Assembly (NCBI RefSeq): GCF_010468615.1
Contig: NZ_WUEH01000015.1
Span: 1-64,000, forward strand
Reading direction: 5' to 3'
DNA from: Pseudodesulfovibrio sp. JC047
GTDB lineage: Bacteria; Desulfobacterota; Desulfovibrionia; Desulfovibrionales; Desulfovibrionaceae
Length of the DNA stretch: 64,000 bases
Below are positions 23,354 to 28,924 of the stretch, piece after piece; the first letter of the stretch is position 1, and each line of letters opens with the position of its first letter. Made by a program: the position numbers and the translations under genes. Below the pieces are notes generated by a model. The model was not told the origin of the DNA and did not search any database. It saw nothing but the letters and a program-made list of their open reading frames with translations.

Positions 23354-24103
23354 TTAAAAGCGGTCAAAGTCCGGGTATTGATGTCCCCACTTTTCATAGA
23401 TAGCGGCCAATTTCCCGGCCTTGTGCAGGGCCATGATTCCTTCGTCAAACAAACGCATGACCTGGTCAGCCCGCTGCGTGTTGCCCAGAACTGGATGATA
23501 AGATCTGGTCCCCACGACCTGACAATCATACTCGTCACGATTGAATGGAAGGCCGGAGACTTCAATGGAATGTTCGATGAAAAGCCGGTCATCCACGTAG
23601 AAATCTGACCGCCCCATCAGGATCATTTGCAAACATTTGATACCGGACGACATGTCCCTGATGTGGACCGGCACGGAAAAATCCCATTCATGGTAATAGC
23701 CAAGCTGACAGACAACTTCCCTGTTCCTGAGCGTGTCCACCCCCTGCCACTGGCCAACCGTCTCCTTGTTATAAAAGACATGGTAGTCGTTCACGTACAA
23801 AGGATACCGGGATAAATGCAAATTGGAACTCGTGGCCCTGTCATCACAAATCATCATATCCGCTTGACCCGAGAGCACTAACTCATCCCCCCGATTGGTT
23901 GGAACATATTCATGCTTCACCGTGATTCCATACAGGGCGAACACCGCGTCAAGCACCTCATGATACAACCCAGTCCCGTCCTCATGCGTAAAGGTCTCCC
24001 ATGCCGGACCAGTGGTATAGACTTCCGTCACCGTTTCTCCATAGGCGGGAGATACAAACGAATTGAAAAAAATAATGAAAAAAAACAGCCATTTTTTGTT
24101 CAC
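23354..24103 (-). CDS. Periplasmic solute-binding protein (SBP_bac_3 type)
   Basis: A 249-residue exported protein of the amino-acid-binding (family 3) fold. A GTG start at 24103 is preferred: it has an AGGGTGG box upstream and begins a clean signal peptide (VNKKWLFFFIIFFNSFVSPAYG). Mature regions include EVYTTGPAWETFT, GLYHEVLDAVFALYGI and the closing DEGIMALHKAGKLAAIYEKWG typical of this family. No permease or ATPase is nearby; such orphan proteins in Desulfovibrionaceae may feed a sensor or a transporter elsewhere. It lies 55 bp upstream of the PACE gene and is divergent from the ORP cluster. Confidence 0.87.
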   Translation of the reverse strand: MNKKWLFFFIIFFNSFVSPAYGETVTEVYTTGPAWETFTHEDGTGLYHEVLDAVFALYGITVKHEYVPTNRGDELVLSGQADMMICDDRATSSNLHLSRYPLYVNDYHVFYNKETVGQWQGVDTLRNREVVCQLGYYHEWDFSVPVHIRDMSSGIKCLQMILMGRSDFYVDDRLFIEHSIEVSGLPFNRDEYDCQVVGTRSYHPVLGNTQRADQVMRLFDEGIMALHKAGKLAAIYEKWGHQYPDFDRF

Positions 24104-24210
24104 ACGCCCACCCTGTACGGTTGAATATTCGATGACAATATATTTTATTATCGAAAAAAATGATAGGGGCCGATACCCTATTGACTTATCACTGTTTATA
24201 AAATTTTTTT

Positions 24211-24274
24211 TGAGCATATGCTCATTTCGCTTGACGATAAGGATTATCAGCGTATGGTCATTTCAACACGTGTT
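24211..24274. promoter_or_regulatory. Candidate operators between divergent genes
   Basis: A perfect 14-bp palindrome TGAGCATATGCTCA spans 24211-24224 and a 10-bp palindrome AACACGTGTT spans 24265-24274. The half-motif ATATGCTCATTTC (from 24217) recurs as GTATGGTCATTTC (from 24252) about 35 bp downstream. The region separates the solute-binding gene (minus) from the DUF134-NifX fusion (plus), whose N-terminal domain is a DNA-binding HTH, so autoregulation is plausible. No sigma54 -24/-12 promoter is seen. Confidence 0.5.
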
Positions 24275-24293
24275 CATATGAGAAGAGGGAACC

Positions 24294-25391
24294 ATGGGAC
24301 GACAGAAAAAACGGCGGATGGTGCAACAGGAACCCGATACGACTTTTTACAAGCCGCAAGGAATTCCCATGCAGAAACTGAAGAGTGCCACGATGACCTT
24401 CGAAGACCTCGAAGCAATACGCCTTGCGGATGCGGAAGGGCTTTCCCAGATGGACGGGGCAAAGGCAATGGGAGTATCCCGTGCCACTTTCGGACGAATT
24501 CTCGGTGCGGCCCGGTCAATCGTTGCACACGCATTGACCAAGGGACACGCCATTCGCATTGAAGGCGGACATTACACCCTTGCTTGTAAAGGGGCACCCT
24601 GCCCCAAAATGCAATCGGACAACTCGTCTTTAAAAGATGAGGAGGAAGCTATGCCAGGTATGAACGGTAATGGATCAGGCGGTGGTCGCGGAATGGGTCA
24701 AGGTCGTGGAATGGGCCAAGGCCAGGGTCAAGGACAAGGCCGCGGAATGGGTCAGGGCCAAGGTCAGGGACAAGGTCAAGGTCAGGGACAAGGCCGTCAA
24801 TCGGGTCAGGGTCGCTGCGTTGGTGGCCAGGGTCGCGGAATGGGCCCGGGCAAAGGTCAAGGTCGCGGCATGGGCGGCGGCGGTCGAGGCATGGGCGGCC
24901 AGGGCCGTGGCATGGGTGGTCAAGGCATGAGCGGCGGCAACCAAGGAATGGCTCGTTCCATGGGCACAGGAAATACATCACAACAATTCAATTCAACCCA
25001 ACAAGTTAAGGATAATACGATGAAAAAAATTGCAGTAACCAGTGAAGGACCGACCCTCGACGACAAAGTAGATCCCCGTTTTGGCAGAGCCGGTGGCTTT
25101 GTCGTCGTCGATCTCGACACCATGAACGCCGAATACCTGGACAACGGGTCTTCTCAGGCCATGGCTCAGGGTGCCGGAATCCAGGCTGCTGAAAACGTGG
25201 CAAACGCTGGTGCCGAAGTGCTCCTGACCGGATTTGTCGGTCCCAAGGCCTTCACCGCCTTGCAGGCCGCCGGTGTCAAAATCGGCCAGGATGTGGCCGG
25301 AATGACCGTGCGTGAAGCAATTGAAAAATTCAAGAAAGGCGAAGTGCCAATGGCCGACAACGCCAACGCACAAGCAGGGGGCAACAAGTGA
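24294..25391 (+). CDS. DUF134 HTH - GQG-rich linker - NifX-like fusion protein
   Basis: A 365-residue fusion. Residues 1-100 are a DUF134 helix-turn-helix domain (LEAIRLADAEGLSQMDGAKAMGVSRATFGRIL). Residues 119-235 are a low-complexity Gly/Gln/Arg/Met linker (GRGMGQGQGQ repeats). Residues 242-365 are a NifX/NifB-type cluster-binding domain (ITVTSEGP-like start, VDPRFGRAGGFVVVD). Two internal in-frame ATGs keep excellent ribosome-binding sites: 24651 (GAGGAGG, 24639-24645) and 25020 (AAGGA, 25008-25012). Three separate genes may therefore have fused, and shorter products may still be made. It heads the ORP-type operon and ends in a 4-bp overlap with the next gene. Confidence 0.88.
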   Translation: MGRQKKRRMVQQEPDTTFYKPQGIPMQKLKSATMTFEDLEAIRLADAEGLSQMDGAKAMGVSRATFGRILGAARSIVAHALTKGHAIRIEGGHYTLACKGAPCPKMQSDNSSLKDEEEAMPGMNGNGSGGGRGMGQGRGMGQGQGQGQGRGMGQGQGQGQGQGQGQGRQSGQGRCVGGQGRGMGPGKGQGRGMGGGGRGMGGQGRGMGGQGMSGGNQGMARSMGTGNTSQQFNSTQQVKDNTMKKIAVTSEGPTLDDKVDPRFGRAGGFVVVDLDTMNAEYLDNGSSQAMAQGAGIQAAENVANAGAEVLLTGFVGPKAFTALQAAGVKIGQDVAGMTVREAIEKFKKGEVPMADNANAQAGGNK

Positions 25392-26257
25392 TCTACGCCG
25401 TAGCCAGCGGCAAGGGCGGTACGGGCAAGACAACCATGTCTTCGTCCCTGGCCGCCCTCTGGGATACCCCCATCACTCTGGTGGATTTGGATGTTGAAGA
25501 GCCGAATCTGCACCTCTTTCTCAAGCCGGAACTGAACGACATTCAGAAGGCGTATATCGAGGTGCCAGAGGCTGACGAAGACAAATGCACCAAGTGCCGG
25601 GCCTGTTCCGACATATGCCAATTCAAGGCAATTACGATTATGGCTGATACCCTGCTGACCTTTCCGGAGATGTGTCACGGATGCGGCGGGTGTTTCGAAG
25701 TCTGTCCCGAAGGCGCACTCACTCCCGGCAAACGGGAGCTGGGTGAAATCTGCCGGGGCACAGCGGACGGCAATGACTTCATCATGGGCCGTCTGCGTAT
25801 CGGCGAAGCAATGAGCCCTCCGCTCATGCGCCAAATTCGGGAAGAGTTCCCCGCGCTCAAGGCCAAAGGCGATGTCCTTATCGACGCGCCTCCCGGTGTG
25901 AGTTGTCCTGCCATGGCCGCGGTCATGGACGCGGACTGCATCGTGCTGGTCACGGAACCCACACCATTTGGATTCCACGACTTCAAGCTGGCGTGGGAGG
26001 CATTCAAACCCATGGGCAAACCCATGGGCGCCATCATCAATCGCGCCGGAATCGGTGACAACACCGTACAGAACTTCTGTGCGGACAACGATATCCCCAT
26101 CTGGGCGGAAATCCCCTACTCCCGCGAAGTCGCCGAAGCGTATTCCAAAGGTGATGTGATCGCCAAGGCACTCAAGCCACTGGAACCCACCTTTACGGCT
26201 TTGCGTGAGAACATGCGGGCTGCTGCCAAAAAAGCCAAGGAGGTCAGCCATGCATGA
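25388..26257 (+). CDS. MinD-family P-loop ATPase with ferredoxin insert (ORP cluster)
   Basis: A 289-residue cytoplasmic ATPase with a deviant Walker A (SGKGGTGKTT, residues 8-17) and an inserted two-[4Fe-4S] ferredoxin domain (CTKCRACSDIC and CHGCGGCFEVC, residues about 63-105). This architecture matches the paired ATPases of the orange-protein operon of Desulfovibrio vulgaris (DVU2103/2104). It starts with GTG at 25388, overlapping the preceding stop by 4 bp. Proposed role: ATP-driven assembly or delivery of a metal-sulfur cluster to NifX-like ORP proteins. Confidence 0.92.
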   Translation: MIYAVASGKGGTGKTTMSSSLAALWDTPITLVDLDVEEPNLHLFLKPELNDIQKAYIEVPEADEDKCTKCRACSDICQFKAITIMADTLLTFPEMCHGCGGCFEVCPEGALTPGKRELGEICRGTADGNDFIMGRLRIGEAMSPPLMRQIREEFPALKAKGDVLIDAPPGVSCPAMAAVMDADCIVLVTEPTPFGFHDFKLAWEAFKPMGKPMGAIINRAGIGDNTVQNFCADNDIPIWAEIPYSREVAEAYSKGDVIAKALKPLEPTFTALRENMRAAAKKAKEVSHA

Positions 26258-27131
26258 GATCGTCATTATCAGCGGTAAAGGCGGTGCAGGCAAAACCTCG
26301 ATCACCGGCGCATTTTCGCACCTCGCGGACAAAGCCATTCTCTGTGATCTGGATGTGGATGCCCCGGATTTGCACCTCTTGCTCGATCCCAAAATCGAAT
26401 TCGAGGAATCCTTCAGGTCCGGCAATGAGGCAGTTATCGATAACGATCTTTGTACAGGCTGCGGCCGATGCGAGGAACTCTGTCGATTCAATGCCATCAG
26501 CCACAAAGACGACCTGTTCACCATCGATCCGATGCAGTGTGAAGGCTGCAAGGTCTGCGTAACTCTGTGCCCGGCCGAGGCCATTGAATTCCCGGAAAGG
26601 CATTGCGGTCAATGGTATGTCTCCAAAACCCGATTCGGCGAGATGGTTCACGCCCAACTCTTTCCCGGTGAGGAAAACTCCGGGCGACTGGTCACACTGC
26701 TGAAACAGCGGGCACGGGAAATGGCTGAAGAGCAAGGGCTGGATATCGTCCTGTGTGACGGTGCCCCTGGTATCGGGTGCCCGGTCATCAGCTCCATGGC
26801 CGGAACGGATCTGGCTGTGGCGGTGACGGAACCGACACTCTCCGGTCTGCACGACCTCAAACGTGTGGCCGAATTGTGTGACGGATTCCGGACCAAGGTC
26901 GCCGTCCTGATCAACAAGTGGGATATCAATCCGGATTTGTCCGATAAAATAGAGACATACTGTACCGAAAAAGGCTATACTGTCGTTGGCCGTTTTCCGC
27001 ATGACAAAAAAGTGGTGGATTCGATGTTACACCGCCAAGTCATTACAGAATATGAAGATGGACCGCTTTCAGCGACACTGAAACAGGCATGGTCGGACAT
27101 TCTGGACATGCTCAAGGATATCAAGAAATAA
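26250..27131 (+). CDS. Second MinD-family ferredoxin-ATPase (ORP cluster)
   Basis: A 293-residue paralogue of the preceding gene: SGKGGAGKTS Walker A, ferredoxin motifs CTGCGRCEELC and CEGCKVCVTLC, and CDGAPGIGCPV around the nucleotide site. The ATG at 26250 has AAGGAGG upstream and overlaps the preceding stop by 8 bp. The two ATPases probably form a heterodimer as proposed for the ORP complex; in D. vulgaris the complex has been connected to cell division and positioning, though that is not established here. Confidence 0.92.
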   Translation: MHEIVIISGKGGAGKTSITGAFSHLADKAILCDLDVDAPDLHLLLDPKIEFEESFRSGNEAVIDNDLCTGCGRCEELCRFNAISHKDDLFTIDPMQCEGCKVCVTLCPAEAIEFPERHCGQWYVSKTRFGEMVHAQLFPGEENSGRLVTLLKQRAREMAEEQGLDIVLCDGAPGIGCPVISSMAGTDLAVAVTEPTLSGLHDLKRVAELCDGFRTKVAVLINKWDINPDLSDKIETYCTEKGYTVVGRFPHDKKVVDSMLHRQVITEYEDGPLSATLKQAWSDILDMLKDIKK

Positions 27132-27157: not shown

Positions 27158-27532
27158 ATGGAAACTCTCGTAGCTGTTCCCACTGCGGAACCAGGTGGCA
27201 TGGACGCCTCTGTTGACGCCCACTTCGGCCACTGCGGCATGTACACACTGGTAGCGATCGCCGATGGTGCCGTCAAAGAAGTCACCACGGTCCCGAGCTG
27301 CCCCCACGAACAGGGTGGCTGCATGGCTCCTGTTCAATACCTGGCTGACCACAAGGTCAAGGCCCTGATTTCCGGCGGCATGGGAATGCGTCCGCTCATG
27401 GGATTCAACCAGGTCGGCATCCAGGTTTTCCACGGCAACGGTGCCCCCACAGTCAAGACTGCCATTGAAGCATTTCTGCATGACAGCCTGCCTGTTTTCA
27501 CCGCTGAACAAACGTGTGGCGGAGGCCGGTAA
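27158..27532 (+). CDS. NifX-like cluster-binding protein, orange-protein homologue
   Basis: A 124-residue NifX/MTH1175-type protein. Desulfovibrio orange protein (ORP) of this fold binds an unusual Mo-Cu-sulfide cluster non-covalently. Features: VDAHFGHCGMYTLVAI, SCPHEQGGCMAPVQYL, ISGGMGMRPLMGF and a C-terminal CGGG. Cysteines at HCGM, SCPH, GCMA and TCGG are available for a metal cluster. AGAAGGAG precedes the start. It is the second NifX domain in the operon, so two cluster-binding proteins are served by two ATPases. Confidence 0.9.
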   Translation: METLVAVPTAEPGGMDASVDAHFGHCGMYTLVAIADGAVKEVTTVPSCPHEQGGCMAPVQYLADHKVKALISGGMGMRPLMGFNQVGIQVFHGNGAPTVKTAIEAFLHDSLPVFTAEQTCGGGR

Positions 27533-27537
27533 ACCCC

Positions 27538-27897
27538 ATGTCTATCGTCTTTGCAACAACCCGCGCCGAATCACTTGGTGAGTTCATGGACTCGCTGACT
27601 GATTCCAGCGGACAGAAAATCGATGTGGTGTCCTCTGGTAAAGCCGCCCTTGAAGCCGTCAAGGACGGGGCCGTCAAACTCGTCGTCATCGATGAAGGGT
27701 TGCACGACTTCACTTCCTTGGATCTGGCTCTGGAAGTCATCAAGGTGAACGCCATGGTCCACACAGCCACGGTTACCTCGTTGTCTGCCAAGGATTTTCA
27801 CGATAAAAGTGAAGGTCTTGGCGTCCTCATGGGACTTCCGGTCAATCCCGGAAAAGAGGATGGGGTCAAACTGGCGGAAGCCTTCGGCAGAATGTAA
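27538..27897 (+). CDS. Small protein of the ORP cluster, receiver-like fold
   Basis: A 119-residue soluble protein (MSIVFATTRAESLGEFMDSL). Predicted alternating strand-helix order with VVSSGKAALEAVKDGAVKLVVIDEGLHD resembles a response-regulator receiver, but the phospho-acceptor region reads VVIDEGL and the other acidic and Lys positions are not clearly kept, so it is probably a non-phosphorylated pseudo-receiver. Small genes of unknown function also occur in the D. vulgaris orp operons. It starts 5 bp after the preceding stop and is the last gene before a strong terminator. Confidence 0.75.
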   Translation: MSIVFATTRAESLGEFMDSLTDSSGQKIDVVSSGKAALEAVKDGAVKLVVIDEGLHDFTSLDLALEVIKVNAMVHTATVTSLSAKDFHDKSEGLGVLMGLPVNPGKEDGVKLAEAFGRM

Positions 27898-28009: not shown

Positions 28010-28924
28010 ATGAGACCCCAAAATCACCAATTCCTGATTGTGTACAGGATGTTCACCATTTTTCCCCTAATCACGGGTATATTCTTGCTGATAACGGTGC
28101 TGGATGCGGCGGCCACGGCCAAGGATATGGCATGGTACCGCGATCACGGTGTCACCGTGGTCAACCCGCCGAATTCCGCCCCGCTGTCATTTCTGGGTAT
28201 CAACGGAACACCCAAGGGTTACCTTATCGATATATGGAAAAAATGGTCTGAAAAAACTGCCATTCCCGTTCATTTCGAATTCGCCCAATGGGACAAGACA
28301 CTGACCGGCGTGGCGCAAGGGACATACGATATCCACGGAGGCCTGTTCATGAGTGAAACACGTTCAGCCTTTCTGGATTTCTGTATACCGTTTCACGAAA
28401 TTCAATCCGCCCTGCTTGTCACAAAAAATAACGATGTCGCACTCTCTCGATTATACAGCACATTCACCGTCGGTGTTCTCAAAAAGGGCTACACAGAAGA
28501 CTTCATCAGAAAAGCCCATCCCACGCTCAAGGTCAGCCAATTCACCGCAATAAGCGATATGCGACACGCACTGGCTAACGAAACCATTCAGGCTGCCGCC
28601 GGAAACCACCCCATTCTTGGATTCGAACTGCGAAAACTCGAAAAAGGGCAGGATATTCTCGTCAAACAGATTCTCTTCAAACGAAACATTCACGGGGCGG
28701 TTGCCAAAGGAAACACCCCACTTCTCACTGTGGTGGACCAGGGATTTTCCGATATCACCCCCGCCGAGTACAAAAACATCGCCAACCACTGGTTCGTGCT
28801 CCAGACCCGCAAAATCGACTGGTTTCGCTATGCCCTGACCGCCGGAGCCATTCTCTTCATCGCCACCATGATCGCGGTTCTGCTGGGCCGTGGAAGTATC
28901 TCCGAGCATCACTCGGCAGACTGA
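28010..28924 (+). CDS. SBP_bac_3 sensor-like protein with C-terminal TM, no output domain
   Basis: A 304-residue membrane protein: N-terminal hydrophobic segment (about residues 15-35), a periplasmic family-3 solute-binding domain (GYLIDIWKKWSEKTAIPV, GTYDIHGGLFMSETR, ITPAEYKNIANHWF), then one transmembrane helix (ALTAGAILFIATMIAVLLG, residues about 275-293) and only 11 cytoplasmic residues. In relatives this arrangement continues into a kinase, GGDEF or chemotaxis output domain, which is absent here, so it is either a truncated sensor or a membrane-tethered binding protein. Its 3' end overlaps comM tail-to-tail by 16 bp. Confidence 0.8.
   Translation: MRPQNHQFLIVYRMFTIFPLITGIFLLITVLDAAATAKDMAWYRDHGVTVVNPPNSAPLSFLGINGTPKGYLIDIWKKWSEKTAIPVHFEFAQWDKTLTGVAQGTYDIHGGLFMSETRSAFLDFCIPFHEIQSALLVTKNNDVALSRLYSTFTVGVLKKGYTEDFIRKAHPTLKVSQFTAISDMRHALANETIQAAAGNHPILGFELRKLEKGQDILVKQILFKRNIHGAVAKGNTPLLTVVDQGFSDITPAEYKNIANHWFVLQTRKIDWFRYALTAGAILFIATMIAVLLGRGSISEHHSAD

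Follow-up and report, generated by a model that had tools for sequence, protein, structure and literature searches.

The orange protein (ORP) carries an unusual Mo-Cu cluster, and to our knowledge it has no settled function. In Pseudodesulfovibrio sp. JC047, a stretch of 64,000 nucleotides (hereafter the window) contains an ORP domain at the end of a frame that begins with a predicted DNA-binding domain, which raises the question of whether this gene yields a single fused protein or also shorter ORP forms that start inside it, and of what the attached DNA-binding domain would control.

The fusion gene occupies positions 24294-25391 of the forward strand and was confirmed as one uninterrupted frame of 365 open codons followed by TGA. 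Pfam analysis of the 365-aa protein detected DUF134 at residues 2-95 (68.9 bits, curated cut-off 27) and Nitro_FeMo-Co at residues 256-348 (71.5 bits), and matched no family in the linker. The predicted structure of the DUF134 domain (24294-24578, residues 1-95) contains a helix-turn-helix (mean pLDDT of 83.5); its predicted fold was nearest to sigma region 4 and DeoR DNA-binding domains with no PDB match under an E-value of 0.001, and a phmmer search of the DUF134 part against PDB gave no match. The linker, delimited by composition (24651-25019, residues 120-242), is rich in Gly, Gln, Arg and Met and cationic (52 Gly, 23 Gln, 12 Met, 10 Arg and 2 Lys, against 1 Asp and no Glu; pI of about 12), with one Cys and one Phe as its only aromatic residue. 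At least one Cys was present in each of the 19 linkers of three-part genes that were examined. Judged by its composition, this segment is probably disordered and exposed. The last 123 residues (25020-25391) are homologous along their length to PDB entry 2wfb (157.8 bits, E 1e-45, 116 residues, query 1-116), which is described as the orange protein of D. gigas (PMC3069746), and the next PDB entry scored only 58.3 bits. All three parts named in the original prediction are thus real, with the corrections that the last domain, taken there as NifX-type, is ORP itself and that the linker comprises 123 residues instead of about 115. Predicted products starting at 24294, 24651 and 25020 have 365, 246 and 123 residues, as had been proposed, and masses of 37.3, 24.3 and 12.6 kDa. 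Structure prediction of the whole fusion protein alone produced no usable model (pLDDT 44.1).

DUF134 was found in 30 of 36 Pseudodesulfovibrio genomes, and at 20 of these 30 loci, ten of them in single-contig assemblies, it is the first part of the same three-part frame (L003, interrupted by a contig end, was left out of the frame counts). The comparison with relatives, which had been suggested as a search for separate genes, also found those: at seven loci (L005, L009, L010, L014, L023, L025 and L030) DUF134 is separate and linker-ORP forms one gene, in L013 DUF134 and ORP are separate genes and the linker is absent, and L007 carries a DUF134-ORP fusion without linker. A sequencing error that hides stop codons, the doubt raised together with the fusion, could appeal only to the genome being a draft in 147 contigs; it was rejected because 19 other loci of the genus share the three-part frame, and we consider its probability negligible. 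In a tree of DUF134 plus ORP (41 rows), the three-part state corresponded to three changes, at least two of them forced by well-supported branches, which may represent separate gains or gains combined with losses. The two-part DUF134-ORP genes described below formed a separate group, supported at 100/100.

Besides the three-part form, DUF134-ORP, linker-ORP, DUF134-GRG, GRG-ORP and ORP-GRG combinations were seen, the first family survey having covered 60 DUF134 loci. Among the matches listed, Halodesulfovibrio-type loci (L034, L035, L040, L046, L049, L064 and L065) have a separate DUF134 gene and the reverse order of the other two parts, with the Gly/Arg-rich segment C-terminal of the ORP-type protein. 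In L183, L197 and L206, DUF134 carries a fused Gly/Arg-rich tail that contains an internal Met (MKGQGQCGRG, MPGQGQGGRCGRG), in a frame without ORP motif, and in L068 and L075, among the matches listed, a DUF5320 gene directly follows the DUF134 gene. The linker resembles this DUF5320 family (PF17253) in a start like MPGxDGTGP, GRG repeats and a Cys; searches for DUF5320 gave no match up to E 1 for the window protein or for two other Pseudodesulfovibrio linkers. As DUF134, GRG-rich segment and ORP recur as neighbours or fused in such varied combinations, they point to one functional unit.

Downstream of the fusion and on the same strand lie a MinD/Mrp-type ATPase with ferredoxin motifs, of the Orp3/Orp4 kind by resemblance (25388-26257, GTG start, overlapping the fusion by 4 nt), a second ATPase of this type with ferredoxin motifs (26250-27131), and a second Nitro_FeMo-Co protein (27158-27532, Pfam 67 bits), whose nearest NCBIfam model, matched at 55.1 bits and thus under the cut-off, describes the MrpORP C-terminal domain. 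An ORP accompanied by two ATPases with ferredoxin motifs is what marks an ORP operon, and this set is present here (25388-26257 and 26250-27131 behind the fusion) together with another Nitro_FeMo-Co gene, so that the assignment to an ORP cluster was right in kind. Behind the second Nitro_FeMo-Co gene, a small receiver-like protein is encoded (27535-27897; weak Pfam match of 17.4 bits), and L059, among the matches listed, has a similar receiver-like neighbour after its NifX-type gene. The cluster is flanked by two genes of solute-binding-protein type, one on the other strand (23354-24217; 22.6 bits, below the Pfam cut-off) and one at 28010-28924 (71.6 bits, above it).

In D. vulgaris, DVU2106 and sigma-54 are reported to control the orp operons, and the same regulator also acts as a repressor at the sigma-70 promoter of its own gene. 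The present locus resembles that system in the clustering of an ORP-type protein with two ferredoxin-motif ATPases and, putatively, in a self-repressing regulator at a sigma-70 promoter. It differs in that D. vulgaris uses sigma-54 and a separate activator, whereas in the window DUF134 is fused to ORP and the candidate promoter is of sigma-70 type. A further difference is that no full MrpORP was found above cut-off in the JC047 genome, the only relative of its C-terminal domain in the window being 27158-27532.

The first internal start (24638-24653, forward strand, ATG at 24651) would open a linker-ORP product. Its Shine-Dalgarno (SD) sequence, GAGGAGGAAGCT-ATG, is very strong and well spaced, with a duplex energy of -12.3 kcal/mol. 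The start codon is ATG in all 20 three-part genes and GGAG precedes it in all of them, 8 nt upstream in 19 and 6 nt upstream in the gene of the window. When codon use was compared over 19 genes, the SD glycine was the sole one among 37 conserved glycine columns with an invariant codon (GGA in 18 of 18, the window's gene, the nineteenth, having Glu at this column), and it was among the 5 single-codon columns out of 107 conserved columns for amino acids with at least three codons. Local mRNA folding at this start was weaker than at 90% of the positions of the same gene in 18 of the 20 genes, and 12 of 20 genes have an SD that ranks beyond the 90th percentile for the gene concerned. Synonymous-codon shuffles gave, gene by gene, p-values of 0.045-0.58 only, and the pooled Fisher value of 61.9 on 38 df ignores kinship. 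(L027, a near-copy of L026, was left out of the shuffle, codon-column and folding-mean tests and kept in the conservation and percentile counts.) The mean folding of 40-nt segments was -3.0 at the true start, -4.5 at the first internal start, -3.2 at the second and -11.3 elsewhere, and both internal starts thus sit in weakly folded mRNA, like true starts. The first one looks like an inherited gene start, because seven relatives encode linker-ORP independently, downstream of a stand-alone DUF134 gene. On these sequence features, ribosomes probably use it in this gene.

The second internal start (25005-25022, forward strand, ATG at 25020) would give ORP by itself. Its SD, TTAAGGATAATACG-ATG, is moderate (duplex energy of -5.9 kcal/mol), and the codon at this place is ATG in 10, GTG in 8 and ATT in 2 of the 20 three-part genes, both ATT genes also lacking an SD. 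Three of the relatives with a separate linker-ORP gene (L009, L010 and L014) have ATC at the corresponding position and no good SD. Folding was weaker than at 90% of own-gene positions in 17 of 20 genes, whereas the SD exceeded the 90th percentile of its own gene in 1 of 20 (median, 77th percentile); shuffles gave p-values of 0.038-1.0, with a pooled Fisher value of 47.4 on 38 df that ignores kinship. The original prediction had credited both internal ATGs with a strong, well-spaced ribosome-binding site and with retention, a description that fits 24651 in full and 25020 in part, this site being moderate and kept as ATG or GTG in 18 of 20 genes but lost in two. We lean, by a little, towards the use of 25020 by ribosomes. 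Over many fused genes, the conservation of start signals favours internal initiation.

We also analyzed 28 two-part DUF134-ORP genes in which the Gly-rich linker is absent: L007 and 27 genes that belong to other genera of the family. They were hand-picked, by an ORP-type motif in frame, from 81 DUF134 rows, to which L007 was added; fusions to another NifX class (such as L037, L048, L056 and L152) as well as L067 and L074 are outside this set. ATG was present at the ORP start in 27 of the 28 genes, L176 having lost it. In 25 of 27 genes the SD at this start exceeded the gene's own 90th percentile, and folding there was weaker than at 90% of own-gene positions in 19 of 27. Shuffle and folding-mean tests used 13 of the 28 genes, with a pooled Fisher value of 48.4 on 26 df that ignores kinship. 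One two-part gene, L036 from genome G049, encodes a 242-aa fused protein whose last 117 residues are identical (117/117) to residues 4-120 of 2wfb, a match on which we assign the genome to D. gigas. The sole other hit in G049 was 30% identical. The L036 junction reads CACAGGAGCAAAAT-ATG, and the 117-aa product from this ATG has a mass of 11,805 Da, while ORP was reportedly purified from D. gigas as an 11.8 kDa monomer. Since this size goes together with the identity to L036 and with the lack of another close copy in the genome, free D. gigas ORP is apparently made from the fused frame, by internal initiation or by cleavage. The D. gigas protein is accordingly itself the C-terminus of a DUF134-ORP frame, as in the window, with the difference that its link has about 30 residues and is not Gly/Arg-rich, whereas the linker in the window has 123.

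The word cleavage brings in a different account, in which only the full-length protein is translated, free ORP arises by proteolysis of the linker, in D. gigas too, and the start signals are relics of once separate genes. Cleavage would yield the same small protein, the linker, judged by composition, is probably disordered and exposed, the shuffle tests are weak gene by gene, and decay of the second start in L006 and L028, as well as its absence in L009, L010 and L014, would be explained. Relics should decay, yet the first start is kept in 20 of 20 genes and the ORP start of two-part genes in 27 of 28 while neighbouring residues vary, and the SD codon does not vary, unlike those of the other glycines. 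We consequently regard proteolysis with relic signals as improbable. A product acting solely as one bifunctional, cluster-sensing regulator, with the internal signals kept for co-translational folding or for codon or residue preference, appears less probable still: Asp/Glu-Gly residues alone can mimic an SD, and the fusion arose or was kept in separate clades (three changes for the three-part state, another clade for the two-part genes), but weak folding is found at the very codon that has the SD, and for free D. gigas ORP, reportedly of 11.8 kDa, that genome offers no second close gene. Internal initiation remains our preferred reading of these signals.

What the DUF134 part would recognize is suggested by the region upstream of the gene. 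There, an operator-like perfect dyad, O1 (TGAGCATATGCTCA, 24211-24224), a candidate sigma-70-type promoter on the forward strand (TTGACG - 16 nt - TATGGT, 24231-24258; 9 of 12 in a consensus scan) and a second, imperfect dyad, O2 (TCAACACGTGTTCA, 24263-24276; 6 of 7 arm pairs), were found, with 52 bp from O1 to O2. O1 was the window's only dyad scoring at least 11 of 12. At 29 of the 30 DUF134 loci of the genus, TGARCATATGYTCA or a near variant lies upstream of DUF134, mostly 78-91 nt from its start (about 44 in L015 and L020), and adjoins a TTGAC box and a -10 element. A similar TTGAC box lies between both dyads in relatives, and in the four loci where the distance was measured (L001, L003, L004 and L006) a weaker second dyad follows after 52-56 bp. 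The dyad of L007, TGCTCATTTGAGCA, is of the TGCTCANNTGAGCA form.

This association extends beyond the genus. Among 81 DUF134 genes found by regular expression, 29 of them from the genus and fewer in all than the DUF134 hits of the wider survey, 72 had TGNNCATATGNNCA or TGCTCANNTGAGCA within 130 nt upstream (shuffle p ≤0.01) and 9 had no dyad at p 0.01; 67 of the 81 reached 11 of 12 on one dyad form. These counts left out L060-L065, L079-L150, loci above L210, repeats and genes with less than 100 nt upstream. In a control with random windows from the wider loci, DUF134 promoters included, the two dyad forms reached this level in 74 and 100 of 4000. Dyads were present upstream of DUF134 in several phyla, and the gene set includes Bacillales, Saganbacteria, Zixiibacteriota and alphaproteobacteria. 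Taken with the predicted helix-turn-helix, this distribution makes it likely that the DUF134 part binds the dyads. Because a dyad precedes 72 of the 81 genes and O1 stands here beside a promoter, we infer that the fusion protein autoregulates.

One could instead suppose that DUF134 is functionally unrelated to ORP, that the two were joined by chance stop loss in a tight operon and that the dyad belongs to another regulator. The dyad is indeed not exclusive, as G010, which has no DUF134 match, carries an exact site between Tpx-like and permease-like genes; against this stand the dyads upstream of so many DUF134 genes in several phyla and the several combinations in which DUF134, GRG-rich segment and ORP are neighbours or fused, and we hold such a chance fusion to be very improbable. 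The exact site, TGAACATATGYTCA, lies between these genes, named from their sequence, in both G001 (L104) and G010 (L107), and since G010 lacks a DUF134 match another regulator with a similar site is likely there.

Further occurrences of the dyad were recorded as follows. Exact TGARCATATGYTCA occurs once in the JC047 genome, which also has three one-mismatch sites and four further matches to TGNNCATATGNNCA, none of the latter a full dyad. Two one-mismatch sites are inside coding frames (L112 and L113); the third (L111, near 2029, C7:70228) is the sole near-match outside an evident coding frame, an imperfect dyad, TGAGAATATGTTCA, followed after about 48 nt by a small frame that reads as Hpt-like from its sequence, and may be a second target. 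A wider regulon in this genome was rejected, two of the three sites being intragenic and the third imperfect. In G001, G002, G012 and G031 (L105, L106, L108 and L110), an exact dyad lies between hypD and a second, divergently oriented Gly/Arg-rich gene, which in G031 is itself fused to ORP; in G029 (L118), the dyad at this place has one mismatch and an ORP frame follows the Gly/Arg-rich gene. This arrangement was seen only in genomes with a separate DUF134, and the dyad beside hypD is a possible trans target of the DUF134 protein. In the stretch searched, such a dyad was absent from the 21 other hypD loci that have no DUF134 gene next to them. G024 has an extra site inside a frame (L109). Two DUF134 genes lie side by side in L032, L042, L043, L045 and L051, only one of each pair being fused to ORP; the dyad forms upstream of the two genes differ in L032, L045 and L051 (TGAACATATGCTCA type versus TGCTCANNTGAGCA type), a hint of split specificity.

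Together, these observations are best accommodated by a nested gene encoding an autoregulator and, from internal starts, linker-ORP and free ORP, with cluster feedback, a reading that we consider fairly probable as a whole. The full 365-aa protein would bind, through its DUF134 helix-turn-helix, the dyads (24211-24276) around its own sigma-70-type promoter and so set expression of the ORP operon. Ribosomes would also initiate at ATG 24651, producing linker-ORP, and with lower efficiency at ATG 25020, producing free ORP, as the related D. gigas fused gene apparently does. The short forms would hold an anionic metal-sulfur cluster with the help of the cationic linker, and the full-length form would display its ORP domain while bound to DNA, which could let cluster supply or ORP load feed back on transcription. 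That this copy binds a cluster, and that cluster loading controls DNA binding, is a tentative part of the proposal. It is rather doubtful, though conceivable, that ORP is more generally the sensor half of a transcription factor, in which the full-length DUF134-ORP would read, at the ORP promoter, the supply of metal-sulfur cluster, the nested short forms made from that message would hold this cluster or pass it on, the threshold would be set by the amount of long form relative to short forms and D. gigas ORP would be such a nested short form.

Known systems offer partial parallels. In cheA, infB and clpB, which have in-frame internal starts, one frame likewise gives nested proteins that share their C-terminus, the difference being that the predicted nested product in the window is a metal protein inside a regulator frame. 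IssA of Pyrococcus furiosus has a cationic glycine-rich tail proposed to hold thioferrate (PMC5524996). It shares with the fusion protein the domain family (IPR003731) and a cationic, Gly-rich, unstructured segment, with one Cys (PMC5524996), and the Halodesulfovibrio-type loci among the matches listed have the same order as IssA, ORP followed by a Gly-rich tail. An ORP-type domain followed by a cationic aromatic/Gly tail was not what the window showed: its segment precedes the domain, has a single Phe for aromatics and is joined to DUF134. As the order is swapped and the residues differ, the comparison with IssA is an analogy only.

Both regulator-sensor fusions and genes with internal starts are established phenomena. 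New here, with respect to the literature searched, are their combination for ORP and the DUF134 dyad: a search to which subscription papers were mostly outside found no mention of an ORP-DUF134 link or of this dyad. For DUF134, which Pfam lists as of unknown function, the dyad provides a concrete candidate site. For ORP, the fact that it is encoded within a regulator gene that has a candidate operator opens its function to direct testing, through binding to TGAGCATATGCTCA and the effect of the cluster on this binding. If the proposal is true, the long-studied ORP would be a nested product of a regulator gene.
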